A DNA stretch of 42,021 nucleotides from Akkermansiaceae bacterium (GTDB lineage Bacteria > Verrucomicrobiota > Verrucomicrobiia > Verrucomicrobiales > Akkermansiaceae): the NCBI GenBank assembly GCA_023253625.1, contig JALRFY010000192.1:1-42021 (forward strand). Direction: 5' to 3'. The notes under the pieces are model-generated. The model did no database searches, had not been told where the DNA came from, and saw nothing but the letters and a program-made list of their open reading frames with translations. Positions 11,454 to 39,214 of this stretch are shown piece after piece. Every line of letters begins with the position of its first letter. Positions within the stretch are counted from its first letter, which is position 1. Made by a program: the position numbers and the translations under genes.

Positions 11454-11460
11454 CATGCAG

Positions 11461-12435: not shown

Positions 12436-12485
12436 AGTTAGAGGGCGCTGGTGTTTTGGGGCGATAGTCGACAGAAGCAACTGAA

Positions 12486-12635: not shown

Positions 12636-12645
12636 AACGAACGGA

Positions 12646-12674
12646 CTAAAACCCGGAAATGGGAAGGGGGTCAA
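12646..12674 (-). promoter_or_regulatory. Candidate sigma-70-type promoter for the PEP-CTERM unit
   Basis: On the minus strand TTGACC (12669-12674) is followed after exactly 17 bases by TTTTAG (12646-12651). The -35 match is 5 of 6 and the -10 is weak. An A/T-rich block lies just upstream (12678-12696), which could act as an UP element. Confidence 0.4.
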
Positions 12675-12691
12675 CCCAATTTTTTATTTTT

Positions 12692-12700
12692 TATACCAAA
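12692..12700 (-). promoter_or_regulatory. Shared TTTGGYATA motif (copy c)
   Basis: Minus-strand TTTGGTATA lies about 18 bases upstream of the candidate -35. On the plus strand it forms part of a small palindrome, CCAA-AGA-TTGG. It matches copies at 3496 and 9820. Function unknown. Confidence 0.3.
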
Positions 12701-12740
12701 GATTGGTTTTTGCCCCGAAATTCATCCCTTGAGCGGCGTT

Positions 12741-14726
12741 TTAGCGCCAATCATCCTCGGTCAGATATTTCTCGATATCCGGGTGCGTGCGCAGGATTTG
12801 GCCGATGCGTTCGCGGGTCCTGACGCTGTTGAAGCGGTTATCGGGATCCACGGCATCGACTGCGCGCGCCCGGGCCAAGGCCTGCCGGATCGACTCCGCG
12901 GCAAGCTGCGGGAATCCGGCTTCCAGGCTGCCGGCCTGGCGGAGTGGTCCAGCAACGGACGTGGGATCGAGCGCGAGGGCGACGGCGAGAGCGCGCTCGA
13001 TGCGGGCGGTTTTGTCGTCAAAGTGAAGGGCGAAGAAAGCCTCGTGGCGCGGGAGATCGCGGTTGAGCGGGGCGGCCGGGCGGGTTTGGTCGATGACGCG
13101 GAGGGCTTGTTCCAGTTTGTCGTCAGCGGGATCGGGCTCATGGGGGATGCCCTTTTCATCGGCGGCCTGCTGGAGGGCCAGGTCTTCTTGGTAGAGTTGG
13201 TGGAGCTGGCGGGTGGCCGCATGGACAACGGTGGTGGCGGGCTGGTTGCCGCCGAACCACTCGGCACGAATCAGGATGGTGGCGGCGGCGAGCAGCAACA
13301 GCGCGGCGACGCGGGCCGGCCAGCGTGCGGCGGGCTTGGCACTGGAGCCAGGCACATGCAGTGAGATGGCGAAAAGCAGCGCGGCGCTCCATGCGAGGGT
13401 GATGCGGTGCCCGGGCACGTCAAAAAGGCCGTGGATGGGAACGAGCAGGGCCGCGACCAGGCAGGCGGAGCGCAGCGCGCGATCGCGGCCGTTGCGGATC
13501 CCCTTGAGCGAATGCCACACGGCGCACAGGACGAGCGCCAAGAGCGCGGCCGCCGCCGGCAAGCCGGTTTCCGAGGCCAGCCACAGCCAATCGCTTTCCG
13601 GGTGAAAGGCATCGGCTTCCTGGGCAATGATCGTGCGCTGCCGGTATTGCGGGAAAACGTAATAATACTGTCCGGCGCCGATGCCGGTCCAGGGAAAATC
13701 GCGGATCAGCCCGAGGGTATCGAGGTGGATCGGGATGCGCAAATCGACATGTTGCAGCGATTCCAGCCCCGGATTCGCGGCGGCGAGTCCGGAAGAAGCT
13801 TCGGGTGTGGTCCCTGTTTCCGCCGGCCTGGCCGCACCCACGCGCTCCATGGTGGCAGTGATGCGCTCCTTCACGGAGGTATCCGCGATGAAGAACAGCC
13901 CGACGGCGGTCAACGCGATCAGACCGACCGCCCACAGTCCATGGCGGCCGAGGTAGCGGCGGCCGAGCAGAATGAGCCACAGCGTGCCGCCGGCGGCCAC
14001 CAGCACCACACCGCCGCGGCTGATCGACCAGGCGGCGACGGCCCACAGGCAGATGGCGGTGGCGGCCAGAGCGAGCGCCAGCGAGTAGAAACGTTTGTCG
14101 CGCATGGCCTGGAGCACACAGCCGAGGCCGCAGATCGCGCCCATGGCGAGGTAGGTGCCGGAGTGGTTCCGGTTCGGGAAAAACCCGAAATGGACAGCCT
14201 GCCCGTTGGCGTCCACGATTTGCAGCATGCGGGAAGCCACCGCGTAGCAGGCGACGCCGCAGGTGAAGGCCAGCGCGAGCCCGCGCAATGCGATGCCATC
14301 CGCCCGGTGGCCCGCCAGCCACATGCCGACCCACAGCATGATGCCGAAAACGGCCAGCATCTCCGCCGATTGGCGGGCTTGGATGGCCACCAGAGAGCCG
14401 GTATCCACGCCGATATCCTGCAGATTTTGCCGCCAGGCGGGCATGCCAAACCACCCGGCCGGCAGGAAACAAGCCAGCGCCGCGATTCCGAATGCCGTGG
14501 CCAGCAGCCACCAACCACGCGGCAGGCCGTGTCTCGGTGGACAACACGCCATGCACAAGCCGATCAGGGCGAAAAGCACGCCGTGAAAGCCGGCCCATGG
14601 CACCGCCACCAGGTAGGTGGCCAGGGTGACCACCGTCCAGAACACCCAGAAGACCGCACGCGATCCCTCCGGATCCGCAGTCAGCACCGGCGGCTTCGGG
14701 AGGCGTGATTCGGCTCGGAAAGGCAT
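12741..14726 (-). CDS. O-antigen-ligase / Wzy-type polymerase family membrane protein
   Basis: Starting at the ATG 14724-14726 (MPFRAESRLPKPP) gives 661 residues; the open frame extends further upstream but without sensible sequence. About a dozen hydrophobic segments fill the first 460 residues. The Wzy_C/O-antigen-ligase signature FFPNRNHSGTYLAMGAICGL is present, followed by a long loop with the typical GIGAGQYYYVFPQYR and HPESDWLWLASETGLPAA. The last 200 residues are soluble and helical, possibly TPR-like. The family polymerises or ligates lipid-linked sugar repeats at the periplasmic face. It is the first gene of the minus-strand locus and is separated from a plus-strand gene by a divergent gap at 14727-14902. 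Family membership is well supported; polymerase versus ligase cannot be decided. Confidence 0.88.
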   Translation of the reverse strand: MPFRAESRLPKPPVLTADPEGSRAVFWVFWTVVTLATYLVAVPWAGFHGVLFALIGLCMACCPPRHGLPRGWWLLATAFGIAALACFLPAGWFGMPAWRQNLQDIGVDTGSLVAIQARQSAEMLAVFGIMLWVGMWLAGHRADGIALRGLALAFTCGVACYAVASRMLQIVDANGQAVHFGFFPNRNHSGTYLAMGAICGLGCVLQAMRDKRFYSLALALAATAICLWAVAAWSISRGGVVLVAAGGTLWLILLGRRYLGRHGLWAVGLIALTAVGLFFIADTSVKERITATMERVGAARPAETGTTPEASSGLAAANPGLESLQHVDLRIPIHLDTLGLIRDFPWTGIGAGQYYYVFPQYRQRTIIAQEADAFHPESDWLWLASETGLPAAAALLALVLCAVWHSLKGIRNGRDRALRSACLVAALLVPIHGLFDVPGHRITLAWSAALLFAISLHVPGSSAKPAARWPARVAALLLLAAATILIRAEWFGGNQPATTVVHAATRQLHQLYQEDLALQQAADEKGIPHEPDPADDKLEQALRVIDQTRPAAPLNRDLPRHEAFFALHFDDKTARIERALAVALALDPTSVAGPLRQAGSLEAGFPQLAAESIRQALARARAVDAVDPDNRFNSVRTRERIGQILRTHPDIEKYLTEDDWR

Positions 14727-14902
14727 GACGCGTATGCAAGCGCGTGTCCCCGGGCTGTCAACCCAAACCCTGGCAGCGGGGATCACGGCCATGGCGTGGT
14801 GGACCGGGAACACAATCGTGCGGAGCGCCCGTGCAAAACGGCGGCATCGCCAGAATGAACCCGGGCTTGCCGAGCGGGGCATCACGCGGCATGATCCCCG
14901 TC

Positions 14903-20352: not shown

Positions 20353-20469
20353 ATTGAATTCATCCTGAAAAACCGGGTGCCTTGCCCCTGAACATTGACT
20401 TGCAATTGCCTCATGCCATCCCAACTCCATTGGCACCATCCGAATTTCAATAAAGCCACTTGCCCAGCG

Positions 20470-21912
20470 ATGAAAACGCTTCTCCTGCTTCCCATTCTGT
20501 TCCTGCTGCCCTTCACGGCCATGCATGCGGCCGCAAAGCCGAATGTGCTGTTCATCATCTCCGACGACCTGACGGCCACCGCCCCGTCATGTTACCATCC
20601 CGACGCAGCCAGAACCCCGGCCATTGACCGCCTGGCGGGACAGGGAACCCGCTACACCCGCGCCTACTGCCAGTTTCCCGTCTGCGGACCGTCGCGGGCG
20701 TCGCTGATGTCCGGTTATTATCCGCACGGCTCCGGCACCATGGGATACGTCAGTGGCCGGAAACAGATCGGCCCGGACCGGATGACCTGGAGCCAGCATT
20801 TCGCCCGGCACGGTTATCACACCGCGCGGGTCAGCAAGATCTTCCACATGGGTGTGCCCGGCGACATCGAGCGTGGCACGGATGGTGCCGATGATCCGGC
20901 GTCATGGCACGAGCGCCACAACAGCCAGGGGCCCGAGTGGAAGACGGCCGGAGACAGCGAACTGCTGGAGAACAACCCCGGCGGCACTGTGAAGGTCAAG
21001 GGCGGCAACACCTTGGAATACGTCAAAGCCGACGGCGACGACCTCATTCACTCCGACGGCAAGACGGCGGAAAAAACCTGCGAACTCCTGCGGAAATTCA
21101 AGTCTGAACCCGACCGGCCGTTCTTTCTGGCGGTGGGTTTTGTGCGGCCGCACGTACCTTTCGTTGCACCTCGCAAGTATTTCGAGCCCTATCCGTGGCA
21201 GAAAGTCACGCTGCCACGGAAACTTGCAGGTGACTGGGACGACATCCCGGTGGCCGGCATCAACTACAAGACCAGCGTCAATCTCAACCTGAATGAGGAG
21301 CAGGAGAAAAAGGCCGTCGCCGCCTATTACGCATCAGTCGAGTTCATGGATGCGCAGGTCGGCAAGCTGCTCAAAACACTGGAAGACGAAGGACTCGACA
21401 AGAACACGATCGTGATTTTCACCAGCGATCACGGTTTCCACCTGGGCGAGCACGACTTCTGGATGAAGGTCAGCCTGATGGAGGAATCCGTGCGCGTTCC
21501 GCTGATCATCCGCGCGCCTGGCGGCCAACCGGGTGTCTGCGGCTCATTCGTCGAATTGGTCGATCTCTATCCGACCGTGTCGGAACTCTGCGGATTGCCG
21601 GTGCCCGGGCAGATCCAGGGCAAAAGCCTTGCGAAGACCCTTGCGGATCCCACGCATGCGGTGCGCGACGCCGTCTTCAGCGTGAACGGTGGCTCGATGC
21701 TGCTGCGCGATGCACAATGGGCCTATATCCGGCACGGCCCCGATGGCACCCAGGGCCGGCAACTCTACGACATGCTCAAGGATCCGGGCCAATACACCAA
21801 CCTCGCCGGGAATCCGGAATTCGCCGACACCGTGCGGGACATGGACCAGCGGCTGAACCGCCGCCTGGCGGAAGTCCGTGACAGCGACATCATGCGCGAG
21901 GCGGGCCGCTGA
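20470..21912 (+). CDS. Secreted sulfatase, iduronate-2-sulfatase-like
   Basis: The ATG at 20470 gives a 480-residue protein with a signal peptide (MKTLLLLPILFLLPFTAMHA) that an upstream start would bury. Metal ligands are in FIISDDLT (Asp32, Asp33). The catalytic cysteine is Cys72 in VCGPSRASLMSG, the CxPSR motif that a formylglycine-generating enzyme converts. Later motifs include VRPHVPFVAPRKYF and TSDHGFHLGEHDFWMKVSLM, typical of iduronate-2-sulfatase-like enzymes. It would remove sulfate esters from sulfated polysaccharides in the periplasm or outside. No formylglycine-generating enzyme or other sulfatase is in the window, so its substrate is open. Marine and host-associated Verrucomicrobiota carry many such genes. 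Confidence 0.93.
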   Translation: MKTLLLLPILFLLPFTAMHAAAKPNVLFIISDDLTATAPSCYHPDAARTPAIDRLAGQGTRYTRAYCQFPVCGPSRASLMSGYYPHGSGTMGYVSGRKQIGPDRMTWSQHFARHGYHTARVSKIFHMGVPGDIERGTDGADDPASWHERHNSQGPEWKTAGDSELLENNPGGTVKVKGGNTLEYVKADGDDLIHSDGKTAEKTCELLRKFKSEPDRPFFLAVGFVRPHVPFVAPRKYFEPYPWQKVTLPRKLAGDWDDIPVAGINYKTSVNLNLNEEQEKKAVAAYYASVEFMDAQVGKLLKTLEDEGLDKNTIVIFTSDHGFHLGEHDFWMKVSLMEESVRVPLIIRAPGGQPGVCGSFVELVDLYPTVSELCGLPVPGQIQGKSLAKTLADPTHAVRDAVFSVNGGSMLLRDAQWAYIRHGPDGTQGRQLYDMLKDPGQYTNLAGNPEFADTVRDMDQRLNRRLAEVRDSDIMREAGR

Positions 21913-25906: not shown

Positions 25907-26119
25907 GGTGATCCATATTTACCGTTCGCATTCGCGATGCCCGCACTTGGACGTGCGTTTCAATTTTTGGTTTTTGCATGTTGGACGCGTGAGACGGAAT
26001 AGCGGTGGGCAGGCGGAAACTGCAATAACTTGCCCATACTCCGAACCATTGGATTGCAACAACGGGCTTCAATGGATTTTTTCTTCCGACTTGTCCTGGT
26101 TCCAGATAGTTAGCAGGGC

Positions 26120-27211
26120 ATGGGGGAGTTTCGCATTCTGACGGCCGCCGAGCAGGTGGCGGACCACCTGCGGACGGAGCTGTGCCATGGGGCTTGGGGC
26201 GGGCGGATGCCGGGGGGCTCGCGTTTGGCGGCCGAACTGGGGGTCGGTCGCAACACGGTGGAAGCGGCGCTGCAGTTGCTGGAACTGGAAGGTTTGCTGG
26301 TGGCGCAGGGAGCGGGTCACCGACGGCGGATCGTGCTGCCCGAAGGCATGGCGGCGCGCCGGCTACGGTTGGCGATCCTGGGCTTCGATCCTGTGGCGGT
26401 GGCAATGGCCGAGGGCTTCATGGTTGATCTGCTGCACCGGCTGGGTGAGGCGGGGCATGATGTGTTTTTCACCGACAAATGCCTGCTGGAATTGCGCATG
26501 GAGGTGGGACGGGTGGAACGGCTGGTGCAGCAGACCGGGGCGGACGCGTGGCTGGTGACTGCCGGCTCGCGCGAGGTGCTCGAGTGGTTCGCGGCACAGC
26601 CGGTGCCGGCATTGGCGTTGTTCGGGCGTCGGCGCGGGTTGCCGCTCGCCGCGGTGGGGCCGGATCACGTTTCAGCCTTTGTTGCGGTCGCGCGCCGCTT
26701 GATCGCACTCGGGCACCGGCGCATCGTGGTGCTGACCCGCCGCAACCGGGCGCTGTCGGTGCCGGGGGCGCCGGAGCGCGCCCTCCTCGCCGAAATGACG
26801 GCCCACGGTATTGCAACGGGCCCATTCAACCTGCCGGACTGGGAAGACACGTGCGCGGGGTTTCACGCCTGCCTGTCGAACTTGTTTCAGCACACCCCGC
26901 CGACCGCGCTGATCCTCGACGAGGTGTCGTTTTGTGTCGCGGCGCTGCAGTTTCTGGGCCGGCGGGGGCTGCGGGTGCCGGAGGACGTCTCGCTGGTTTG
27001 CACCGATGCGGCCCCGGCCTTCGCGATGTGCGAGCCGACGATCGCCCACATCCGCTGGGACAGCCGCCCGTTGGTAAGGCGGATCGTGCGCTGGGCGGCA
27101 AATGTCAGCCAGGGAAAGCAGGACTTGCACCAGACGCTTACCAAGGCGGAGTTTTTCGAGGGCGGGACCATTGGGCCGGCACCGGCGGGACGGTCAACGG
27201 GTTTGGCATGA
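26120..27211 (+). CDS. GntR-type DNA-binding domain fused to a LacI-type sugar-binding domain
   Basis: This 363-residue regulator has an N-terminal winged helix of the GntR kind (residues about 8-70). TAAEQVADHLRTEL is followed by MPGGSRLAAELGVGRNTVEA and a wing LLELEGLLVAQGAG. A two-lobed periplasmic-binding-protein-like domain of the LacI/GalR type fills the rest (LRLAILGFDPVAVAMAEGF, then HRRIVVLTRRNRAL and PEDVSLVCTDAAPAFAM). Such hybrids sense sugars and control carbohydrate genes. The ATG at 26120 is the first in-frame one. It sits at the edge of the glucan-utilisation locus and about 100 bases before a LacI regulator gene on the same strand. Likely targets are nearby, but no operator can be tied to it. 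Confidence 0.87.
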   Translation: MGEFRILTAAEQVADHLRTELCHGAWGGRMPGGSRLAAELGVGRNTVEAALQLLELEGLLVAQGAGHRRRIVLPEGMAARRLRLAILGFDPVAVAMAEGFMVDLLHRLGEAGHDVFFTDKCLLELRMEVGRVERLVQQTGADAWLVTAGSREVLEWFAAQPVPALALFGRRRGLPLAAVGPDHVSAFVAVARRLIALGHRRIVVLTRRNRALSVPGAPERALLAEMTAHGIATGPFNLPDWEDTCAGFHACLSNLFQHTPPTALILDEVSFCVAALQFLGRRGLRVPEDVSLVCTDAAPAFAMCEPTIAHIRWDSRPLVRRIVRWAANVSQGKQDLHQTLTKAEFFEGGTIGPAPAGRSTGLA

Positions 27212-27316
27212 AGGCCATGGGGAAGGAGCGTGCATTGAGGATGAGGCAGATGGCGAGTTTCCCGCTCTTGCACCGGCGCAGCTTTGTCGTCACGTTCGCG
27301 CCAGCACAAGACGGCG

Positions 27317-28378
27317 ATGTCCGAGGTCAACCAACAACTCATCGCGGATCGGCTAGGTTTGTCGCGGGCCACGGTCTCGCGTTGTTTCACCAACCACGCG
27401 GGAATCAGCCCGGTGACGCGGGCGAAGGTGTTCCAGGTGGCGGCGGAGATCGGCTACACGCACATGGAGAGCCGTAGTCCGCAGGCGGCGAAACCATCGC
27501 GCGGCCGGCGCTTGTGCGTGCTGATCTGCACTTATGCGGAGGAATACTTCCGCGGCGGGTACCAGAGTCCCGGCGAGCAGATCCTGGCGGGCGTTTCGGA
27601 ATACGCACAGGCGCATGATTTCAAGGTGGACGTGCATTTGATCCCGCCGGATGTCACCAGCCTGGACGATGCGCCGTTCCGCGAGATCGGTGGCATTTCC
27701 CGGCGGGCGTTCGGCGGCGTGTTGTTGATCTATCCGTTTCCCGAACCGGTGATTGAACAACTCGCGTTGCGGTTTCCGCTGGTGTCGCTGGTCGATCAGC
27801 TTGAGCACGGCTCGATCGATTGCGTGGACGTTGACCATTACAATGGCATCTCGATGGCGGTCGATCATCTGGTGAAGGAAGGGCACCGCCGGATCGGATT
27901 CTATACGAAGGCATATGCGGTCGAGGCGAGTTGGTCGCTGCGGCGCTACAGCGCGTTTGTGGAGAAAATGGCGCGGTTGAAGATGAAACTTTCGCCCCGG
28001 GATGTGATCGGAGTGTTTCCCCGCCCGGTGCTGCCGGTGCCGCAAAGCATCGAGGCGGCGGTCGCCCGGACGCGCGACGGTGTGACCGGCTGGGTTTGCG
28101 CGGCGGATCACCAAGCCTACGACATGATCCGCGGTTTCTCAGACCATGGATTGAAGGTTCCCAAGGATGTCTCGGTGACGGGTTTCGACGGCATCGAGCG
28201 CACCCGCTCCTCGCCGGATCTCACCACGGTGCGCATTCCTTACCGGGAAATCGGCATGACCGGCGCGGAGCGGTTGGCGGCGCGGCTCAGGAAACGGTTC
28301 CAGGGCAAGCAGCATGTCTATATCTCCGGCCAACTGCACGAAGGCCGCACCGTGGAACCGCCGGTTTCATCGGAATGA
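27317..28378 (+). CDS. LacI-family transcriptional regulator
   Basis: The ATG at 27317 (MSEVNQQLIADRLGLSRATV) gives 353 residues, starting right at the LacI helix-turn-helix (about 4-45), with SRATVSRCFTNHAGISPVTR as the recognition part and the hinge after EIGY. The ligand domain shows RGRRLCVLICTYAEEYFRG, the subdomain segment CVDVDHYNGISMAVDHLVKEGHRRIGF and VPKDVSVTGFDGIERTRSSPDLTTV. These are classic LacI/GalR features. The stop is only 3 bases from the convergent transporter gene stop at 28382. Its likely role is sugar-dependent repression of the glucan locus, possibly through the AATTGCA/TGCAATT motifs near 33.2-33.3 kb; this link is inferred from position only. Confidence 0.92.
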   Translation: MSEVNQQLIADRLGLSRATVSRCFTNHAGISPVTRAKVFQVAAEIGYTHMESRSPQAAKPSRGRRLCVLICTYAEEYFRGGYQSPGEQILAGVSEYAQAHDFKVDVHLIPPDVTSLDDAPFREIGGISRRAFGGVLLIYPFPEPVIEQLALRFPLVSLVDQLEHGSIDCVDVDHYNGISMAVDHLVKEGHRRIGFYTKAYAVEASWSLRRYSAFVEKMARLKMKLSPRDVIGVFPRPVLPVPQSIEAAVARTRDGVTGWVCAADHQAYDMIRGFSDHGLKVPKDVSVTGFDGIERTRSSPDLTTVRIPYREIGMTGAERLAARLRKRFQGKQHVYISGQLHEGRTVEPPVSSE

Positions 28379-28381: not shown

Positions 28382-29755
28382 TCACTCCGCACGGCGCGCG
28401 GCGAGTTCGCGGGTGATTTCCGCGAGTTTTTCCTCCGTGAGATTGTAGGCGAGCAAAACGATGCCATTGGAAATGGCCAGAACGCCCGGGACGATGCTGG
28501 CGATGAAGCGGAAACTGGCGACCACTTCGTCGCCCGCAGGTTGGTCCGGCGTGAATCCGGCGCGCCCGAGCATCCAGCCGCAGAGGCTGCCGCCGATGCT
28601 GATGCCGAGTTTCTGCGCGAACATCGCCGCCGAGAAGGCGAGTCCGGTGACGCGGCGTCCGGATTTCCATTCGTTGTAGTCCGCCACATCGGTGTAGATG
28701 GCCCACACCAGCGCCGGAGTCGGGCCGGCGATCAGGTTGCCAATGATGTTGAGCACGACCAGGATGTGGTAGCCGTCGCGCGGAATCAGGAACAGGGCCA
28801 GCACCGTGATGCCGTTCATGAAGGTGAGCGCGATGAGGCTCCCGCGCTTGCCGTAGCGACGGCCCAGGAATCCTGTTAGAAAAACCCCCGCGATGAACGC
28901 CAGGCTGCCGGTGGTCTGGACGAAGCTGATTTTGTCGAGAAACAGGAAATACGGGCCCTCATCCACATTGAAATAATACTTCAGATACTGCGGCGTGATG
29001 GTCCAGCGGACGGCGGCGGCTGAGAGTGTGAGGATGGCGGCGGCCACCATGACGAGCCACGGACGATTGCGCAGCAGCGAGAGGAAATCGCCGCGGATGG
29101 TGGCGGATTTTTCCACCTGTGGCCGGACGCGCTCGCGGGTGGTGGCGAAGGCGGCGAGGAACATCACGGTGGCGAGCACGGCCATCACCGCCATCGCACG
29201 GGGGAAACCCACGCCTTTGTCGCCCCCGCCAAGGGCGAGCACCAGCGGCAGGAAGGTGATCGACATGATGAGCTGGCCGGAAAACGCGCCGATGAAGCGG
29301 AAGGTCGAGAGGCTCGTCCGCTCGGCCGGCGAGGGACTCATCACACCCATCAGCGCGGAGTATGGAACATTGATCGCCGTATATGCCGTCATCAGGAACA
29401 CATAGGTGATGTAGGCATAAAGCAGCTTGCCGTTTGCGCTGAAGCCGGGATTGGCGAAGGTGAGATAGCCGGCGATGCCGAAGGGCACCGCCATCCACAG
29501 CAGGTAGGGACGATAGCTGCCCAGGCGGGTGCGGGTTCGATCGGCGATGACGCCCATCAACGGATCGCTGATGGCATCCCACAGGCGTGGCAGCAGCAAC
29601 AGCGTGCCCGCAGTGGCCGGAGCGATGCGGCAGACCTCCGTGTAGTAGAAGAAGATCCACGCGTTGACGCCGAAGAAGAACAGGTTCGAGGCGGTGTCGC
29701 CCATGCCATAGCCGATTTTCTCGCGGAGTGGCAGCTTCGTGTCGGGAGCGGACAT
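28382..29755 (-). CDS. GPH-family (MFS) glycoside:cation symporter
   Basis: The ATG at 29753-29755 (MSAPDTKLPLREKIGYGMGD) gives 457 residues. The opening LPLREKIGYGMGDTASNLFF is the signature of the glycoside-pentoside-hexuronide:cation symporter family. Further matches are WDAISDPLMGVIADRTRTRLGSYRPYLLW and the loop with GVMSPSPAERTSLSTFR. About twelve transmembrane segments are visible. It imports a sugar or oligosaccharide with a cation. The gene starts 13 bases after the stop of the 1140-residue enzyme gene, so they share a transcript, and the imported sugar is likely that enzyme's substrate. The sugar itself is not readable from the sequence. Confidence 0.92.
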   Translation of the reverse strand: MSAPDTKLPLREKIGYGMGDTASNLFFFGVNAWIFFYYTEVCRIAPATAGTLLLLPRLWDAISDPLMGVIADRTRTRLGSYRPYLLWMAVPFGIAGYLTFANPGFSANGKLLYAYITYVFLMTAYTAINVPYSALMGVMSPSPAERTSLSTFRFIGAFSGQLIMSITFLPLVLALGGGDKGVGFPRAMAVMAVLATVMFLAAFATTRERVRPQVEKSATIRGDFLSLLRNRPWLVMVAAAILTLSAAAVRWTITPQYLKYYFNVDEGPYFLFLDKISFVQTTGSLAFIAGVFLTGFLGRRYGKRGSLIALTFMNGITVLALFLIPRDGYHILVVLNIIGNLIAGPTPALVWAIYTDVADYNEWKSGRRVTGLAFSAAMFAQKLGISIGGSLCGWMLGRAGFTPDQPAGDEVVASFRFIASIVPGVLAISNGIVLLAYNLTEEKLAEITRELAARRAE

Positions 29756-29768: not shown

Positions 29769-32700
29769 TTAGACCACCGTCCATGCGGCGGGAAGCTCGA
29801 TCTCGACGGATTGCACGCGTCCACTGCGCCCGGTGATCTCGCGGGTCAGTTCCGCATCGAATTCCGCATCCGTGACCTCAAGCGCCGGACTCCCCGTGCA
29901 GTGAACACGGCAGACCGGACGTTCCAGATCCTCGCGCAAACGGTAACGAACCGGTGTGCCGGCCAGGGTGAAGCCGACGCTGCCGGCGGCATTGTCGCCG
30001 AATTCCGCACGCCGAAGCAGCCGCGGACGGAAGCGCAGGCGACCGTCGCGGAAATCGACGCCCAGTTCGCCCAACCGGCAGAGGATGCCCTCCTTGACCT
30101 GGCCGGTGAGTCCGGGTTGCCGCGCGCCGGCGTGCGCGGGGCTGTGTGAATAGGGTTCCGCAGGGAATGCGCCGTAGCCTTCCGGGGTCTTGCGGAAACC
30201 GAGTCCGCGCTGGATATCAAAGTAACAAGCGGCGAGGCGGCGAATGAGAACGTCATCGGCTTCATGCTCGCAGGCGCTCAGTGTGACTTCCTGTGCGGCG
30301 AGCATCAGTTTGGAAACCATGTGCCAATAGACGCAGCCGAGTCCCTCGTAGGCGAACATGCTGCCGCTCCTGCCGGTGAAGGAATGATGGCGGAAAGTCG
30401 CCTCATAGAGCGCTTCGACGGCGGAGCGGTCGTTTTCCGCCATATCTCCCAGCCCGCTTTCCTGTGCCAATCGGGCGATTCGTTCGCGCAAGGCATAGAC
30501 GTTCACCAGATCGGGGTGGAAACGGAATCCGGCATCCGGATCGCGCACCAGCAGTCGTTGGTCGCCACGCGCCGTCATCGCGGCCAACAACGGGATTTCG
30601 CCGGCCACTGCGGGATCCACGCGGTTGGTTTCCAGAAACGGAACCGTCTCGCGATCGGGATAGAGCAGGTAAGTCTCATGCCGCGACGAGCGCAGCGGGC
30701 TGTCTGGCAGCGCTTCAAGGAGATCGACGGCTTCGGCGGGATCAAGAATGCCGGAACTGAGGATGGAGACCTGGCCCTCGAGCATGGGAACGAGCCGTTC
30801 GATGCTCATGCGGCCGGCGGCCGCATGGATATGCAGCACGTTGTAGGAATGCCAGAGCGTGTCGTCGCGGCGGTTTTGGCGCAGGGTGGTCTCGAGCGAG
30901 GCGCGGGATTGCTCGATGAAATCGAGCACGCTGCGGCGCGCGAATGGCACGGATTCCCCCGGCCCAGCCTGATAGACGTGGCGCCGGTATCGCTCTACGG
31001 CAAGTCCCGCGGCACGCACAAGGTTGAAACGCTGGCCGGCATCGAGCGGCTCGCGGCGCGTCCAAAGCGGATCGCCGAACAGGTCGCCGAGGGTTTCCAG
31101 CAATTCGCAGATGGCCGGACTGAGCCGCAGCGTGTCATGCGGATGTGCGGCGATCATTTTTCCAATGCAGCCGAGATATCGATAGAGATATCCGGCGGTG
31201 ACCACCGAGAGCCCGCAGCCCGCGAGCGCATTGTTGGCGTCGTTCCACTCGGGACGCCGGGTGTTCAACCAAATGCCACCGCCGGGGATGAGATTGGCGA
31301 GTTTTGTCAGGGCCGGAAGCAGGAGTTTCTCGGCAAGCGTGGCACGCACCAATGAACCATCGGCGTTCCGAAGCAACAATCCGTCGGCGCCGATCCGGGC
31401 CTTGCGCTCCATCAGTTCCGCATGCAGCGCATGATCGAAAACCACCGTGTCGCGTGGGTCTTCGAGGGTTTTTTCCCACGAGACCAAACGATATGGCACA
31501 TCCGCATAGACATGCCCGGCGATGTCGAGACGCGCCGCCAGACGGTCGGGATGGACACGTGCCTCGAGCTCAAGAAGTTTGAGCAGATAGACGATCTGAT
31601 GATCGCCCCAGTAGCCGATGGATGCCCATGGATCGTCGGGCATTGGCGCCTCCCAGTCGATCCCTTCTGAAGTGATGCGGTAGGGGTTGAAGCCGTCGAT
31701 GGTGGAGGCGTTGAGAAACTTCGCGACGAAGGCATCGAGATATTCCGGATAACTCCAGGCGAGTGCTTCCCAATTTTGGAAGATATCGCGCCAGTTGCCC
31801 TCGAAGTGGTGGACGGGTCCGCTGTCATCATCGGCGACGCGGATGAAAAACCGGTTCCATGGACGGCTCGGATCGCCATGGCGGCGCGAGAGGATGAGTG
31901 GCAGATATTCGGTGGCGATGCGGTCGAGATCGGGATCGGCGATGGCGCGGACGGCTTCCAACAGCCCGTCGCGGCACGGATTTCCAGGCAATGCGGAAAG
32001 CGCTTCGGCATGGTGGGTGGCAAGCTCCGCATTGTGCCGGGAGAGATGCTGGAGGAAACGGCCGCGATCAAGCCGGCAACCATTCTCAGGTATCCCGCCG
32101 CGGAGGATGTTGGCGAGCGTGTTGTGATAATGATGAAGGACAATGTCCCTGTCCGCGGATTGTTGGAAACCATCCGCTGCCGCCACGATGGAGGCGAGCC
32201 GCCCGGAACCACTGCGGATATCGTTTTCCACTTCCGCCAGCAATGCGCCTGGATCGGCGAGCAAGCCGCGCAGACCCGCTATGTCCGATTGGCTCTGTTG
32301 GATTTCCGCCACCATGGTCCAATCCAAGGCATCGCCAGCCTCCAGAAAAAGATCGCGTGCGAGAAACATCGCGCCGCGCCTGCCACGCACCTGCCGGGCG
32401 GTTGTTGGCGCAGCGCCGCGCAGAAAAGCTTCCGCATCGCGCCGGTCCATGAAGGTCGGGCCCCCGCCCAGACCGGTGCACCATACCGTCGTCGCATGCA
32501 GCATTTCCAGCGGTGCGGGTTCGTCGGTGATCCCCGCGGCCAGGCGGTGGATGACAAGCGCCCCGCCAAGGTCCTGCTCGCTGATCTTGTAGGCGTCCGC
32601 CAGACAACTGAATTGAAGCTGGAAGCGGCTCTCGATGCCGGCGGGCATGAAGTTGTCGAGGCCATCGACAAGCCGCAGTCGGCGGCCGGCCGGACCCTCG

Positions 32701-33191
32701 TTGACGAGCCGGGCCGATCGGACGAATCCGAAGCGTTGCGAGAACCTCCAGCGATAGCTCATTCGCAAACCCATTTCGAGATGCTCCTCCTCAAACACAA
32801 TCTCGTCGCCCAACGTGCTTTTCATCAAACGCCTGCGGATCGGCCGTAGCCGAGCGATCGACGGACTGAAGGGATTCCAAAGATTTTCATTTGTGGCAAT
32901 CGCCGTCCACGGGCCGGTCGTGTTCCAGTTCCCGATGATTTTATCGACCGTGTAATATGGGAACAAAGCGCGCTCGGCGGACTGCCGTCCCGCGGTGAGC
33001 GATCCATGGCTGCTGCAAAACAGCCACTGGTCCCCAGCTCCGGAAATGCCGAGAAAAAAAGGCTCGAACTCTTCAAGCGGTTCGATCACCACATAATCGA
33101 CGCCGTGCGAGCACTTCCAGCGGTTCGCGGGTGGAAACGATGCGATGGCGGATGGCGCTGAGGCGACGGCCTGCTTTACGGTGGTTTGCAT
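29769..33191 (-). CDS. Large cytoplasmic GH94-clan-like protein, candidate beta-glucan phosphorylase
   Basis: This 1140-residue protein has no signal peptide. The N-terminal part is beta-rich (about 30-300) with LTAGRQSAERALFPYYTVDK. A helical, (alpha/alpha)-barrel-like centre follows, including EGNWRDIFQNWEALAW (464-479), ASIGYWGDHQIVYLL (523-537) and RRPEWNDANNALAG (645-658). Near the C-terminus come RSGSMFAYEGLGCVYWHM and PYSHSPAHAGARQPGLTGQV, and a final beta region. The layout and the WND(A/G) motif recall GH94-related phosphorylases, and the length suits GH149/GH161 beta-1,3-glucan phosphorylases rather than the 800-residue GH94 enzymes. Both comparisons are from memory. It is co-transcribed with a GPH symporter and lies near a GH81 glucanase. 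It may be a divergent member or a new family. Confidence 0.6.
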   Translation of the reverse strand: MQTTVKQAVASAPSAIASFPPANRWKCSHGVDYVVIEPLEEFEPFFLGISGAGDQWLFCSSHGSLTAGRQSAERALFPYYTVDKIIGNWNTTGPWTAIATNENLWNPFSPSIARLRPIRRRLMKSTLGDEIVFEEEHLEMGLRMSYRWRFSQRFGFVRSARLVNEGPAGRRLRLVDGLDNFMPAGIESRFQLQFSCLADAYKISEQDLGGALVIHRLAAGITDEPAPLEMLHATTVWCTGLGGGPTFMDRRDAEAFLRGAAPTTARQVRGRRGAMFLARDLFLEAGDALDWTMVAEIQQSQSDIAGLRGLLADPGALLAEVENDIRSGSGRLASIVAAADGFQQSADRDIVLHHYHNTLANILRGGIPENGCRLDRGRFLQHLSRHNAELATHHAEALSALPGNPCRDGLLEAVRAIADPDLDRIATEYLPLILSRRHGDPSRPWNRFFIRVADDDSGPVHHFEGNWRDIFQNWEALAWSYPEYLDAFVAKFLNASTIDGFNPYRITSEGIDWEAPMPDDPWASIGYWGDHQIVYLLKLLELEARVHPDRLAARLDIAGHVYADVPYRLVSWEKTLEDPRDTVVFDHALHAELMERKARIGADGLLLRNADGSLVRATLAEKLLLPALTKLANLIPGGGIWLNTRRPEWNDANNALAGCGLSVVTAGYLYRYLGCIGKMIAAHPHDTLRLSPAICELLETLGDLFGDPLWTRREPLDAGQRFNLVRAAGLAVERYRRHVYQAGPGESVPFARRSVLDFIEQSRASLETTLRQNRRDDTLWHSYNVLHIHAAAGRMSIERLVPMLEGQVSILSSGILDPAEAVDLLEALPDSPLRSSRHETYLLYPDRETVPFLETNRVDPAVAGEIPLLAAMTARGDQRLLVRDPDAGFRFHPDLVNVYALRERIARLAQESGLGDMAENDRSAVEALYEATFRHHSFTGRSGSMFAYEGLGCVYWHMVSKLMLAAQEVTLSACEHEADDVLIRRLAACYFDIQRGLGFRKTPEGYGAFPAEPYSHSPAHAGARQPGLTGQVKEGILCRLGELGVDFRDGRLRFRPRLLRRAEFGDNAAGSVGFTLAGTPVRYRLREDLERPVCRVHCTGSPALEVTDAEFDAELTREITGRSGRVQSVEIELPAAWTVV

Positions 33192-33212
33192 GATGCTGGC
33201 GCGGGCGCCCTC

Positions 33213-33230
33213 AAATTGCAGAAAATTGCA
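33213..33230. promoter_or_regulatory. Operator candidate O1: two AATTGCA copies one helical turn apart
   Basis: AATTGCA occurs at 33214-33220 and 33224-33230, exactly 10 bp apart. It lies between and over the predicted -35 (TTGACA) and -10 of the minus-strand promoter of the 1140-residue enzyme gene, where a bound repressor would block RNA polymerase. Confidence 0.5.
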
Positions 33231-33241
33231 TTCATTGTCAA
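33213..33241 (-). promoter_or_regulatory. Candidate promoter of the enzyme-transporter operon
   Basis: On the minus strand a perfect TTGACA (33236-33241) is followed after 17 bases by CAATTT (33213-33218), a weak -10, about 22 bases before the ATG. The operator candidate O1 overlaps the spacer and -10. Confidence 0.45.
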
Positions 33242-33318
33242 ACCGACTTTCCGAAGGGGGCGAGTCCGGGGCGCCATTTCATTCACACGATCCGGGCCAA
33301 TCCGGGGCGACTCCAAAA

Positions 33319-33340
33319 AAATTGCAACTTTATGCAATTT
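33319..33340. promoter_or_regulatory. Operator candidate O2: perfect 8-bp palindrome AAATTGCA-N6-TGCAATTT
   Basis: AAATTGCA (33319-33326) and TGCAATTT (33333-33340) form a perfect inverted repeat with a 6-base spacer, ending 4 bases before a TTGACG -35 element on the plus strand. Its centre is about 107 bp, close to ten helical turns, from O1. This is the kind of site a LacI- or GntR-type dimer could use. Confidence 0.6.
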
Positions 33341-33344
33341 CAGG

Positions 33345-33373
33345 TTGACGCCCCATGCCCGTTGTCCTAAAGA
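33345..33373 (+). promoter_or_regulatory. Candidate promoter of the secreted-protein gene group
   Basis: TTGACG (33345-33350) is followed after 17 bases by TAAAGA (33368-33373). This would start transcription about 60 bases upstream of the ATG at 33441. Confidence 0.5.
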
Positions 33374-33440
33374 CCTTTTTCATACCGCAGCGGAATGGCA
33401 ACATTATCCGGTGCGGTCACCAGCCACCTCCAAACCCATC

Positions 33441-34376
33441 ATGACCACTCTTTTCGGTTCAATTGCCCGCTGCGGCAAATTCCGGCGGATCGCCGCGCTG
33501 GCCACCATGCTCGCCTCCGGCACCGGTCTCGCCGGGCTCTCGCCCTATTCCGAGGATTTCGAATCATACGCGGAGGCGGCTCCGGAACAACTGCTGGGCG
33601 GTGGCTGGCTGGTCTATGGCAATGCGTTCGGCAGCGGCGGCGGATATCTTTACGGCTACGGCCCGTTCGCCGCGCCAAACTCCGGCGGTGGATTCTGCAA
33701 CGTCGCCACCGGCGAGGGCGGCCCGGATCAGGGGACCAAGGTGCTGACGGTATATTCGGACTACAACAACGCCGGCATGGCTTCCCCCACAAGCCAGTTG
33801 ATCGAGGCGAATGTGTTCCAGGAATACACCATCGCGGCTTCGGACGTCGGAGCGACCTGGACCTTCCAGTTCGATGTGAAAAAGGGCAATCTGGGACTCC
33901 GCTCCACCAACATCGCCTTCATCAAGGTGCTCAATCCGTTCAATGGCTACTCGACCACCACCTTCAAGACATTCGACGTGGCGACGCTCGCCGACGCCAA
34001 CTGGGCCACCCAATCGCTGCAAACAACCATCGGCGAGTGGCAGGGGCAGATCCTGCAGATCGGCTTCATGGCCACCGCCACCGAATACGAAGGCTCGGGC
34101 GCTTTTTACGACAATCTCTCGTTCACCTCCCCGGATTACGTGGCGCCGCCCGGCCCGCGCATCGTCTCGGCGGGCTTTGAAGGATCAAATTACCAAATCA
34201 CATTCGAAACCAAGTTCGGCTTCCAATACTCATTGTGGAAAGCGGAGACCCCCGCCGGGCCATATGAAGTGATCGACACCGGATTGTTTGGCGATGATTC
34301 GGAGGCGACCCTGTATGATTACGAAGCCACGGGCGACAAGGCCTTCTATCGCGTCGGTGAAACACCCAACCCCTGA
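33441..34376 (+). CDS. Secreted beta-sandwich protein with a C-terminal Ig-like domain
   Basis: The ATG at 33441 (MTTLFGSIARCGKFRRIAAL) gives 311 residues with a basic N-terminus and a signal peptide ending near GLAGL. The first domain (about 33-235) is a jelly-roll-like beta-sandwich, with YSEDFESYAEAAPEQ, ATWTFQFDVKKGNLG, AFIKVLNPFNGYSTTTF and AFYDNLSFTSPDY. Part of it resembles the PEP-CTERM protein at 35197 (AFIKVLDPNSGYATV). The last 75 residues form a domain ending KAFYRVGETP, of a type common at the end of Verrucomicrobiota exoproteins. There is no PEP-CTERM. It is probably a glycan-binding or surface protein of the glucan locus, placed first in the plus-strand group. Confidence 0.75.
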   Translation: MTTLFGSIARCGKFRRIAALATMLASGTGLAGLSPYSEDFESYAEAAPEQLLGGGWLVYGNAFGSGGGYLYGYGPFAAPNSGGGFCNVATGEGGPDQGTKVLTVYSDYNNAGMASPTSQLIEANVFQEYTIAASDVGATWTFQFDVKKGNLGLRSTNIAFIKVLNPFNGYSTTTFKTFDVATLADANWATQSLQTTIGEWQGQILQIGFMATATEYEGSGAFYDNLSFTSPDYVAPPGPRIVSAGFEGSNYQITFETKFGFQYSLWKAETPAGPYEVIDTGLFGDDSEATLYDYEATGDKAFYRVGETPNP

Positions 34377-34380
34377 ATCC

Positions 34381-35145
34381 ATGAAGATATTGTTTCCAAC
34401 CGGACGGCGTGGGCGCATGAAGCGCCGCTCCGGTTACACGTTGGTGGAACTGCTGGTGGCGATCGTGATCATAGCCGCGCTGGCGGCGGTCGTTTTCACC
34501 ATCGTCACCCGCGTGAGGATTTCCGCCAAAAACACCGTGACACTGGGCGCGCTGCGCCAGATCGGCACCGCTGCGGCCGCCTGGATGGGCGACAACCACA
34601 ACTTCTATCCACCGTGCTGGGACAATACCGAGGGCCGCAACCGTTCCTACGCCCAGACACTCGATCCCTACATCCACGGCGAGGAGGATTTCCGCCGCGA
34701 GGATAGCATATTCATCGGTGCGAACGCCCGTCTTCCGGTCAAGGTCAACGAGTTTTCCCACCCGATCACGTTCTCGATGAACCGCGCGGTTTGCCGCGAC
34801 ATCACCAGCAGCGGCAACAGGACCGAGAAACTGATACACGCCACCCAGGTGGAGCGGCCGGGAGAGGTGATTCTGATGGCCGACGGCTGCCAGAATTCAT
34901 CCAACATGAATCAAGCGAACGCCTCGGCACACCGCGTTTTCGCGGCGGTCGGCCAGATCGGAAACCGCTCACGCTTTGAGGAGGCCATCCCGGTAGGTCC
35001 GGACGAGGACACCCCGGCCGGCGACGGCTGGTTCCGCTATCACGGCGGCAAGTGCAACGCGCTGATGTGCGATGGTTCCGCGCGGCAGTTTTCCAAGGGA
35101 ACGATTCTCAAACGCCACATTTGGATCGACCGACTGAGCAATTGA
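34381..35145 (+). CDS. Pseudopilin-like protein with prepilin cleavage/methylation motif and H-x-G/DG tail
   Basis: From the ATG at 34381 the protein has 254 residues. The type IV prepilin signal RRSGYTLVELLVAIVIIAAL (15-34) shows a basic leader, Gly18 before the cleavage point and Glu at position +5, followed by the hydrophobic helix. The globular part ends with FRYHGGKCNALMCDGSARQF, the histidine-to-DG pattern of the large pseudopilin families (DUF1559-like) of Planctomycetota and Verrucomicrobiota. The ATG is 4 bases after the previous stop, so it belongs to the same transcript. It is probably a minor pilin or type II secretion-like surface subunit. What it does in a glucan locus is unknown. 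Confidence 0.85.
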   Translation: MKILFPTGRRGRMKRRSGYTLVELLVAIVIIAALAAVVFTIVTRVRISAKNTVTLGALRQIGTAAAAWMGDNHNFYPPCWDNTEGRNRSYAQTLDPYIHGEEDFRREDSIFIGANARLPVKVNEFSHPITFSMNRAVCRDITSSGNRTEKLIHATQVERPGEVILMADGCQNSSNMNQANASAHRVFAAVGQIGNRSRFEEAIPVGPDEDTPAGDGWFRYHGGKCNALMCDGSARQFSKGTILKRHIWIDRLSN

Positions 35146-35196: not shown

Positions 35197-35952
35197 ATGA
35201 CCATGAAACCAAACTGGAATACCAATCAGTCCCTTGCCTTGGGATCCTCACGAAACAATCCCGGAGCCACCCATTCCCGCCGAAGTAAATGGCTGGGGCT
35301 TGTCGCCGCTGCCGTGTCACTCACGGCAGCCCCGGCGATGGCAGCCACTTGGGTGGGTTACATGAATGTATTCAACACTGCAGCGGGCACGAAGGGCGGC
35401 TACGTCTTCGGCAGTGCGTGGGGCGTGGCGGATCTGAAGACGACCGTGTCCGTTCTCGGCTCCGGAATGGATCAACTGATCCTACAACCGAATTACAACA
35501 CTTATGCCGACAATGCCGGTGACGCCTTCTGGCGGAACAACGACGGAGCGGGACCCGATGGAAACAAATGGATGGAGGCCAACACCTACGTTGAAACCGC
35601 TTCGATCGCGGTTTCAACCTTCAGTTTTTCGGGCATTGTTGGCAGTTTCACGCTGAACTCCAACTACGTCGCCGAGGCCTTCATCAAAGTGCTCGATCCA
35701 AATTCCGGTTACGCCACGGTTCTCAATGACCGGGTGGCACTCCCGGCTTCGGGGGCGTTCGAGATCCATTCCGATCTTGCGAACTACCAAGGCATGATCC
35801 TCCAGACCGGATTCACGATCGAAGGTCTCAATGCCAATCCCGACGCCGAGGCGAGCCTTGGCAATGTCACGGTCACTGTTGTGCCGGAGCCCTCGGCTGC
35901 CTTGCTCGGAGTCCTCGGTCTGGCTGGCATCCTGAGGCGTCGGCGCAACTAA
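35197..35952 (+). CDS. PEP-CTERM sorting-domain secreted protein of the glucan locus
   Basis: This 251-residue protein starts at the ATG 35197; a second ATG at 35203 is nearly equivalent. The signal sequence is long, with its hydrophobic core after RRSKWLGL (LVAAAVSLTAAPAMAAT). The C-terminus (229-251) is VPEPSAALLGVLGLAGILRR plus arginines, a standard PEP-CTERM signal. The middle is a beta-sandwich with AFIKVLDPNSGYATVLND and YQGMILQTGFTIEGLN, matching the secreted protein at 33441 (AFIKVLNPFNGYSTTTF, WQGQILQIGFMATA). It is probably sorted by the exosortase encoded at 5610. It may bind glucan at the cell surface. Its end is 9 bases from the convergent epimerase-like gene. Confidence 0.9.
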   Translation: MTMKPNWNTNQSLALGSSRNNPGATHSRRSKWLGLVAAAVSLTAAPAMAATWVGYMNVFNTAAGTKGGYVFGSAWGVADLKTTVSVLGSGMDQLILQPNYNTYADNAGDAFWRNNDGAGPDGNKWMEANTYVETASIAVSTFSFSGIVGSFTLNSNYVAEAFIKVLDPNSGYATVLNDRVALPASGAFEIHSDLANYQGMILQTGFTIEGLNANPDAEASLGNVTVTVVPEPSAALLGVLGLAGILRRRRN

Positions 35953-35961: not shown

Positions 35962-36858
35962 TCAGCATGATGGTGGCGGTTGCAGCGTAAGCCGGAGCTG
36001 CCATGCACGGGTTTCCAAAGGTCTCAGGGTGGTCAGGTCATCGCCTGGGCGGGCTTCGCTGAGTCGATCTCTCGCGAGGTTCGTCGGCTCGATGGCCCAG
36101 TGGTGAAGTCCGTTCCAAGCGCCGCGGTTGATCCACAGCCCGGCCCATGGGAGCAGCTCGCCAGGCCAATCGAGACGCAGGCTGCCGCCTGGCCCGCGGA
36201 TCTCGGCCCGTGCCGCTGCGGGAACCTCGACAAATACCTTGGCGCACGGCGGCTGCGCCACCCCCACATCCGCCCGGGTGAGATCCTGGCCCGGCTCCGC
36301 CCCGGGCCACAGGAGGCACCGTCCGTCGGTCGCGAGGCAATGTGACGGCGTTGGCTCGAAATGCAGGCGGTCTTGTGTTTCCAAGGTGAACAGGGGATGC
36401 CAGGCCCACTGGTAGGGAACCGGGCGAGCGGCGGTGTTTTGGAGGCGGTAGTTGAGGCGGAGCGTGTTTCCCTCGATGTCCAGACAACGTTCGAAATGAA
36501 GCGGCAGGCATTGCAGCCGCCACGCACAACGCAGCGTTTGGGGATCGAAGGCCGGAGCGGTGCGCCACAACTCGCCGTGATCCGGGAGCGGGTGCCCATC
36601 GACCTCGCAGGCAAGGACGGTGGGCAGACATTCGTCGATACCCGCACCCGGCCCGGTTTCGTAGCGTGACGGGTCCGCCGGGAGGTGGAGCCGGCGGCGG
36701 TTTTCCGGCGACCAACCGTCGAGCCACTCACGTTCGCCATGGAGATGGCGCAGAGAGACGATCCGTCCTCCGAGGGCGGGGACCAGAACCAAAGAGATGT
36801 TGCCGGCTTCAACGCGATACAGTTCGAAGCCATTGATGATCTCGGTGCGGACAGTCAT
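35962..36858 (-). CDS. Aldose-1-epimerase (galactose mutarotase)-like protein
   Basis: This 298-residue protein starts MTVRTEIINGFELYRVEAGN and continues with the supersandwich pattern of the mutarotase fold: ISLVLVPALGGRIVSLRH, GAGIDECLPTV (about 92-102), PYQWAWHPLFTL and AIEPTNLARDRL. The Glu in AIEPT and the His in WAWHPLF sit where catalytic residues lie in the family. It is the second gene of a two-gene unit, 9 bases after the GH81 stop. Family members interconvert sugar anomers, which would be useful with sugar phosphorylases or kinases. Other members of the fold act on hexose-6-phosphates or are non-catalytic, so the exact substrate is uncertain. Confidence 0.85.
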   Translation of the reverse strand: MTVRTEIINGFELYRVEAGNISLVLVPALGGRIVSLRHLHGEREWLDGWSPENRRRLHLPADPSRYETGPGAGIDECLPTVLACEVDGHPLPDHGELWRTAPAFDPQTLRCAWRLQCLPLHFERCLDIEGNTLRLNYRLQNTAARPVPYQWAWHPLFTLETQDRLHFEPTPSHCLATDGRCLLWPGAEPGQDLTRADVGVAQPPCAKVFVEVPAAARAEIRGPGGSLRLDWPGELLPWAGLWINRGAWNGLHHWAIEPTNLARDRLSEARPGDDLTTLRPLETRAWQLRLTLQPPPSC

Positions 36859-36867: not shown

Positions 36868-39144
36868 TCAGCGGCTGGTGGTCAATTGGCCCGGGCGCGC
36901 CATCAAAGTGTGTCCATCGGAGAAGGTCACCTCGACCGGTTCCTCGCCGAAGTGGTAGGCTGCGTAAAAGCGCCGCCCGTTCTTTTCATAGATGTTGACG
37001 AAGGGATGGTCGGCGGTGACTCCGGAGGTGTTCAGGCCCAGCGAGCCGAGGGTATGGATCCATTGATACATGAAGGCACGGCTGTTGCCTGCCTCCGTGC
37101 GGCACCCCGGATTTTTGTCCAAGTGCTCAATCGGCGCTCGCGGATCGTGCAGCGCGCCGAACATCGCCAGCAGATCGCCCCAGCCCGTGTTGTAGTCTCC
37201 TTTGGCTTCACGGTGGCGAACGATGTGGCCGTGGGTGTCGCCGACATATTCCGGATGCCGGCCGAGATATACCGATGCCGGAGTGAATGGCAGCCAGTTG
37301 ATGCCGTAAATGTGGTCGATTTCGCCGGAAAACCATGTTCCATATGCACCCTTGCCGCCCCAGATCATGCCTAGCGCCTTGTGCGGAAACTCCTTCGGAA
37401 AATTCGTGCGATTCACATCGAACCAATATTCCTCGATGGCGGTGCGCTCGGTGTTGAACAGATAGATGCCGGTTTCCAACAGGTCATCGCGTCCGGTCGC
37501 CGCGCCCCACAGCATGATGCCATTCCATGCGTTCATCGCCTCAGAGGCGGATTCCTGGTTGTTGCCATCGCCGTAATCCGCGTCGCCCGACGCCCACGAG
37601 TGGCCGGCATAGGGATCAAAGCAGCGGAATCGCGGAAACATCGGATCGTTCGGGTCCGATGAAGCGATGTCGCGGATCAACAGTTCGACCATGGGGCCCC
37701 ATTTCCCCGTCCATTCGAGATCGACACGCGCCACTTCCGCCGCGGCACGGATGAAGTAACCGTAGTGGAAATGATGGTCGTTCATGCGGGAATCGCTGTC
37801 ATACGAAGGCTTGCTGCCGATCAATGCGCCCCATCGTGCGTCGTGGTAAAAGAGGGTTTCATTTTCACCGGGTGTGGCCGTGAACCAGTTTTCGAGCCGC
37901 GCCTTGATCGCGTCATGGAAACGGTCGCGCAGCGCGGTCTCGCCGAGGCTTTCGGCAATGCCCGCAAGCGTCGCCAATTTGCCGAGCAGCTTGCCTTCCC
38001 AATACGTGTCCTTGAAATCGCGGACCGGCCCCGGGAGTTCTTCGCGCAAATACCCGATGAGTCGGTCGCGGTCGCGGATGCCATCGGCCGGAAGCATCGG
38101 CAGCACGCCCTGCACCGGCAAGCGCGTGCGGAAGCCGGAACCGCGCCCAAGCTTCATCGTGCCGCGCACCGAGGCATAGCTCCAGGTGGTCATCTTGTCT
38201 TCCGAATACTTCCATTGGTGGGGATAGAGCGCGAAAAGCGTGTCCGAACCGGAGCCTTCGAGTGCCTCGACGGTGAACCGGTAATCCGTGATGACAAATC
38301 CATCATGCACTTCCGGCACCACTCGTGTGTCGGTGACGTGATGGTGCGCCACTTCCGAGAAACCGCGGATTGTTCCATCTTCCGCAGCGGGCAGGAGCGC
38401 GATGGAGAAATAATCCTTTCCGCTTTCCAGCGACCATGTGGTGTCGTTTTCCGCGCTCCAGCGTGCTCCGGAAGGGCCGAACAAACCATAGTGATGGCCG
38501 CGGACCGTCAGGCCGACCACCGCGTCACCCTCCTTCCCGTGCCACAGCCGCGGTTTTTCGGCGAAGCGGAGTTCTGGCATCACTTCACCGTGACGCACAT
38601 AGACAAACGGGCTGCCATGGCCGAATCGCGCGTCGAGCCGCGCTTGGTCCTGCTCGAATCGCACGCCCACGAACCAATCGCTCGAATCGAGAAGCACGGC
38701 TTCGCAGAAGCCATCGATGCCGCCGAGGCCTAGGGTGAAATCGCCGGTTTCACCGATGCCTCCGCCGATGAAAGCGTCCTTGCCGGTGTGGATTGATGAT
38801 CCGGGGTATCCGACCGCCAGCCCCCGTGGTCCGCAACGGAGCGCGAGCGGATGGGCGAAGAGTGGTTGCGAGTGCGGCTGCCAAACGATCGAACTCCACC
38901 AATCGTTGGTCGGAACAGGCCCCGCGAGAGCGGCGGCACGGTGGATTTTTTCCGGCGGTGGCTTGCATCCCGCCGGAAGCCGGGTGGTGTAGCTTCCCGC
39001 GCCAACCGCGACGATTCCATCCCGTCCGGTGGAAATCTCGCGCGACCCGCAGGCGCACAAGGTGAGCATGAAACCCGCCGTCAGGAACCGGACCGCGCGC
39101 CGATGGAATTTACGCAAACATGATGTGGAGCGGAAACCGTTCAT
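36868..39144 (-). CDS. GH81 endo-beta-1,3-glucanase lipoprotein
   Basis: The ATG at 39142-39144 (MNGFRSTSCLRKFHRRAVRF) gives 758 residues. The lipobox-like LCAC places the lipidated Cys at 32, so it is anchored in a membrane. The GH81 catalytic region is intact: NDHHFHYGYFIRAAA (455-469), AGHSWASGDADYGDGNN (513-529) and QESASEAMNAW (530-540). The nucleophile and acid Glu/Asp positions of the family fall in these strings. GH81 enzymes cut internal beta-1,3 bonds of laminarin, curdlan and similar glucans. It is the first gene of a unit with the epimerase-like gene. The full domain order of GH81 (N-terminal beta-sandwich from about 50, catalytic helical barrel from about 370) is visible. Confidence 0.92.
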   Translation of the reverse strand: MNGFRSTSCLRKFHRRAVRFLTAGFMLTLCACGSREISTGRDGIVAVGAGSYTTRLPAGCKPPPEKIHRAAALAGPVPTNDWWSSIVWQPHSQPLFAHPLALRCGPRGLAVGYPGSSIHTGKDAFIGGGIGETGDFTLGLGGIDGFCEAVLLDSSDWFVGVRFEQDQARLDARFGHGSPFVYVRHGEVMPELRFAEKPRLWHGKEGDAVVGLTVRGHHYGLFGPSGARWSAENDTTWSLESGKDYFSIALLPAAEDGTIRGFSEVAHHHVTDTRVVPEVHDGFVITDYRFTVEALEGSGSDTLFALYPHQWKYSEDKMTTWSYASVRGTMKLGRGSGFRTRLPVQGVLPMLPADGIRDRDRLIGYLREELPGPVRDFKDTYWEGKLLGKLATLAGIAESLGETALRDRFHDAIKARLENWFTATPGENETLFYHDARWGALIGSKPSYDSDSRMNDHHFHYGYFIRAAAEVARVDLEWTGKWGPMVELLIRDIASSDPNDPMFPRFRCFDPYAGHSWASGDADYGDGNNQESASEAMNAWNGIMLWGAATGRDDLLETGIYLFNTERTAIEEYWFDVNRTNFPKEFPHKALGMIWGGKGAYGTWFSGEIDHIYGINWLPFTPASVYLGRHPEYVGDTHGHIVRHREAKGDYNTGWGDLLAMFGALHDPRAPIEHLDKNPGCRTEAGNSRAFMYQWIHTLGSLGLNTSGVTADHPFVNIYEKNGRRFYAAYHFGEEPVEVTFSDGHTLMARPGQLTTSR

Positions 39145-39214
39145 GGAGTGACCCGCAATCGGCGGGTCTCCAGACAATCGGTTTCCCTCCGGGATGCCGA
39201 TAGGAAAATCCAGC

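Follow-up and report, generated by a model that had tools for sequence, protein, structure and literature searches.

Glycoside hydrolase family GH149 was founded in 2018 on beta-1,3-glucan phosphorylase activity, with EgP1 of Euglena gracilis as its founding member (PMC5827456); the specificity for beta-1,3 linkages is documented (PMC5827456, PMC6484121), GH149 enzymes being active from DP 2 and GH161 enzymes from DP 3 (PMC6484121). Bacterial GH149 genes were found in clusters with sugar transporters, including MFS proteins of PF13347, and with other glycoside hydrolases (PMC5827456), and laminarin loci are already recognised by GH149 as a marker (PMC10108472, PMC11573768). As activity, clusters and use as a marker have all been published, the 1140-residue protein considered here adds a member to a known family; what we add is the recurrent pairing of GH149 with a GPH symporter and a convergent LacI-type regulator in the nearest relatives, together with an operator-like motif. 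EgP1 belongs to the same family; unlike the present protein it is eukaryotic, and the two were compared by family only.

A solved GH149 structure is that of Pro_7066, a beta-1,3-oligoglucan phosphorylase (6HQ6, 6HQ8). Its active site comprises W651-N652-D653, with D653 as predicted catalytic residue, R470-D471, H959 and E951 (PMC6771811). It also has a surface oligosaccharide site, kept mainly in bacterial sequences more than 60% identical to Pro_7066 and less conserved in distant GH149 members (PMC6771811). Enzymes of GH161 (9GY9, 9QQK) and the GH94 laminaribiose phosphorylase (6GGY) belong to the same clan, GH-Q, with related fold and catalytic motifs.

The window, i.e. the whole stretch of DNA analysed, is 42,021 nucleotides long and comes from an Akkermansiaceae bacterium. 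The following genes are relevant to beta-1,3-glucan use.

29769..33191, minus strand: GH149 beta-1,3-glucan (laminaridextrin) phosphorylase, 1140 aa (NF058639, PDB 6hq6, Foldseek)
28382..29755, minus strand: cation:sugar symporter of GPH type (MFS_2), encoded immediately after GH149 (TIGR00792; PF13347, E 1e-87; recurs in relatives)
27284..28378, plus strand: LacI-family regulator, convergent with the symporter (PF00356, PF13377; 65–67% identical to LacI of relatives L002 and L003)
36868..39177, minus strand: GH81 endo-beta-1,3-glucanase, with a lipoprotein-like N-terminus as judged by eye (PF17652, E 1e-60; no other GH81 was found in the genome)
35962..36858, minus strand: weakly aldose-1-epimerase/DUF4432-like protein directly after GH81 (PF14486, E 1e-4; PF01263, E 4e-4; neither reaches the curated cut-off)

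The GH149 reading frame has 1140 codons, begins with ATG and contains no internal stops; in the 3.44-Mb assembly containing the window its only match is to itself. Both the open frame and the WND motif reported in the first-pass annotation were thus recovered. By eye, the N-terminus (MQTTVKQAVASAPSAIASFPPANRW) shows no hydrophobic signal segment, in line with its claim that a signal peptide is lacking. The NCBIfam model NF058639 (GH149 beta-1,3-glucan phosphorylase equivalog), applied in place of the dbCAN models proposed earlier, matched residues 31–1133 with a score of 1212.6 bits, slightly over the curated cut-off of 1150. In a phmmer search of PDB the top match was Pro_7066 (6hq6) with E 7e-246 over residues 39–1068, a similarity far beyond what chance would be expected to give in a sequence comparison; identity is 37% over 891 aligned residues. 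An AlphaFold2 model built from a 36-sequence alignment (pLDDT 86.9, pTM 0.89) retrieved 6hq6/6hq8 first in a Foldseek search of PDB, with a TM score of 0.93 over the whole length. The end-to-end superposition on 6hq6 gives the GH149 domain order: beta-sandwich, helical linker, (alpha/alpha)6 barrel with two inserted domains, and jelly roll. The model has a beta-rich part at about residues 24–299, then a helical body, as had been anticipated, and then a C-terminal beta part. Local pLDDT is low at residues 647–652, the catalytic loop, a limitation of the model that does not count against the assignment. The model search, structure prediction and Foldseek comparison, which the first-pass annotation had called for, all come out in favour of GH149. 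That the product belongs to GH149 is almost certain.

The alignment of the protein with 6hq6 and 94 homologues located three conserved sites, the roles of the second and third being taken from PMC6771811.

31218..31259, minus strand: RRPEWNDANNALAG, residues 645–658, with predicted catalytic Asp651 (D653 of Pro_7066); WND invariant
31785..31790, minus strand: RD motif R468-D469 (R470-D471 of Pro_7066), sugar-1-phosphate recognition; invariant in 95 sequences
30321..30347, minus strand: E949 to H957 (E951 and H959 of Pro_7066), donor/phosphate site; invariant in 95 sequences

Within RRPEWNDANNALAG the string PEWNDANN begins at residue 647. All named active-site residues of Pro_7066 are thus present, as R468, D469, W649, N650, D651, E949 and H957, each invariant in the 95 sequences, and the WND aspartate lies at the active-site position that the first-pass annotation had foreseen for it. 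The protein resembles Pro_7066 in full-length homology, domain order, active-site residues and fold; it differs in its modest identity and in the surface oligosaccharide site, which is mostly lost (K831P, E838S, Y841E, E990A), the conservative changes being Y993F and E994D (here F991 and D992). This loss agrees with PMC6771811; the surface site of Pro_7066 is not a family-wide defining feature of GH149.

The symporter scored 348.8 bits with TIGR00792 (cut-off 231). Its likely ATG, at 29755, lies 13 bp past the GH149 stop, while a GTG-start form in the list of reading frames overlaps GH149. Of the earlier claim of co-transcription, the same-strand adjacency stands; co-transcription itself is plausible, judging from strand and spacing. 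The symporter gene is directly 3′ of GH149 in all six nearest relatives, and a lacI gene convergent with it recurs in L002, L004, L005 and L008; in L003 lacI is further away, and in L014 the contig ends before its position. GH81 is indeed encoded nearby, as had been noted, on the same strand 3.7 kb upstream of GH149; as opposite-strand reading frames lie in between, it is not part of the GH149 operon. In L002 and L005 GH81 adjoins lacI divergently. Of the intervening frames, 33186–34376 (plus strand) encodes a protein that matches no Pfam family, and 34288–35145 (plus strand) one with an N-terminal methylation motif and a weak DUF1559 match. The product of 35197–35952 has a sub-threshold PEP-CTERM match.

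The locus resembles the GH149 type II clusters of Alteromonadales and Bacteroidetes laminarin PULs in having a sugar transporter (a PF13347 MFS protein in type II), regulators and beta-1,3-glucanases (PMC5827456). In contrast to those clusters, here it is a GPH symporter that comes directly after GH149, with a regulator of LacI type and a GH81 enzyme as endo-glucanase; furthermore, no susCD pair or TonB receptor adjoining GH149 was recognised, nor was any outer-membrane uptake protein near the locus. No GH16 laminarinase was found in the genome; elsewhere it carries two phosphoglucomutase/phosphomannomutase-family genes and two genes whose products have a GH3 N-terminal domain.

A 14-base near-palindrome, TGCANWWWDTTRCA, recurs ahead of GH149, both in the window and in relatives. 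A motif search placed two sites in the window.

33217..33230, plus strand: operator-like site 1 (TGCAGAAAATTGCA), 25 bp ahead of the GH149 start codon
33323..33336, minus strand: operator-like site 2 (TGCATAAAGTTGCA), 131 bp ahead of the GH149 start codon

These two exact matches compare with 0.01 expected in the window from shuffles, and they are the only matches in the whole 3.44-Mb assembly, both less than 150 bp away from where GH149 starts. Since the pattern was drawn up after inspection of the GH149 upstream regions, hits in those regions are not independent. The independent part of the motif evidence consists of matches not used for writing the pattern: those in the lacI–GH81 intergenic region of L002 and L005, and one upstream of lacI in L003. 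Three sites lie in L003 (Haloferula sp. BvORR071): one at a PA14/GSDH-domain protein (5149), one preceding a 205-codon frame that is itself ahead of GH149 (9226) and the one upstream of lacI (20570). In the window no exact match was found upstream of GH81 or lacI, matches with two mismatches elsewhere were at chance level, and a scan for sigma-70-type promoters before GH149 found nothing. The simplest reading of the motif positions is that a LacI-type repressor controls the GH149–GPH pair, and that in relatives it also acts on GH81 and on its own gene. This would suggest a single LacI-controlled beta-1,3-glucan regulon. Just before the LacI gene, 26120–27211 (plus strand) encodes a regulator with GntR-HTH and Peripla_BP_3 domains; a weak relative of the motif, TGCAATAACTTGCC, is at 26021–26034, about 90 bp upstream of it.

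A scan of species genomes found at least 590 stretches encoding GH149 matches; the family is therefore large and widespread. Within the phylum, 24 of the 288 sampled genomes had a match above cut-off. The nearest relatives among the matches listed are Verrucomicrobia: Haloferula sp. BvORR071, an Akkermansiaceae MAG and uncultured Verrucomicrobiales. A tree of 83 sequences places the protein in a fully supported group of seven, the other six being 52–57% identical to it and verrucomicrobial wherever the record names the group; the rest are 36–45% identical. Two genus-mates have a GH149 of another lineage, 44% identical to the protein, which makes the distribution of the gene within the genus patchy. 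These genus-mates (L082, L083) and the Akkermansiaceae MAG L063 carry a different GH149 lineage (about 42–44% identical), and there too GH149 has a GPH symporter and a gene of LacI type as neighbours. One genome of the same class has a GH149 gene that was matched in two separate pieces, frames of 257 and 711 codons (G145:C5:12933-16333); this is either a broken gene or an assembly error.

Very probably, then, the protein is a cytoplasmic, inverting GH149 phosphorylase that works with GH81, GPH import and LacI control. The GH81 endo-glucanase would cut beta-1,3-glucan outside the cytoplasm, and the adjacent GPH symporter most likely imports the short laminari-oligosaccharides. With phosphate, GH149 would remove the non-reducing-end glucose, Asp651 presumably acting as general acid, and release alpha-glucose 1-phosphate while shortening the chain, ultimately to glucose. 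Phosphorolysis keeps the bond energy as glucose 1-phosphate. The LacI-family repressor next door probably controls the GH149–symporter pair via the two TGCA-N6-TRCA sites. Cleavage of imported laminari-oligosaccharides, which we infer from sequence, fits the gene neighbourhood; the function would be carried over from a characterised enzyme 37% identical and outside the protein's own clade.

One could speculate that a GH149-fold phosphorylase of this verrucomicrobial clade has drifted in substrate, towards another beta-glucan linkage or a branched or mixed-linkage oligosaccharide. The long stem of the clade in the tree, the NF058639 score barely above cut-off and the missing surface site would be in line with that; however, all named donor-site residues are invariant, and a member of an endo-beta-1,3-glucanase family lies in the same neighbourhood, relatives keeping both genes close, which makes such drift improbable. 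We also see only a small chance that the clade has a shifted chain-length or linkage preference, tied to GH81 products and surface-site loss, under a dedicated LacI operator.

The first-pass annotation had left a choice between a divergent beta-1,3-glucan phosphorylase, which the results bear out, and a new GH94-clan family. A family distinct from GH149, GH161 and GH94 might be suspected as no Pfam family reaches cut-off here (the sole hit, to TraC, was due to chance), but this reflects missing Pfam coverage rather than novelty. With the curated GH149 cut-off passed, a full-length 6hq6 match at E 7e-246 against 6e-11 for GH161, the TM score of 0.93, and 36–57% identity to 94 homologues from many phyla, a new GH-Q family is ruled out, and we leave it hardly any probability. 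A GH161 beta-1,3-glucan phosphorylase, acting on DP 3 and above only, would account for the detectable similarity to 9qqk, which with other GH161-like chains came second in the phmmer search; sequence similarity, score and fold (TM 0.68) are all far nearer to GH149, and GH161 membership is excluded with negligible residual doubt. GH94 membership is likewise ruled out, TM scores of 0.61 (the laminaribiose phosphorylase) or less indicating likeness at fold level only; known GH94 structures such as 6ggy were absent from the phmmer matches up to E 10. The alignment of chain 9h8v, deposited as a cellobiose phosphorylase, resembles that of the GH161 chain 9qqk.

The GH149 reading adds a well-supported instance of beta-1,3-glucan being used by phosphorolysis among Verrucomicrobia, with a testable operator and, in relatives, a compact GH149–GPH–LacI–GH81 arrangement; otherwise it confirms existing knowledge of GH149 and is a sound but ordinary annotation.

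The same window also contains a sulfatase gene (20395–21912, plus strand; PF00884, E 8e-47). On the minus strand, 3625–14885 encodes an exosortase EpsH (5610–6536), an AAA_31/ParA-type protein, an SLBB-domain polysaccharide export protein and a Wzy_C-type protein; this is an exosortase-linked exopolysaccharide cluster.
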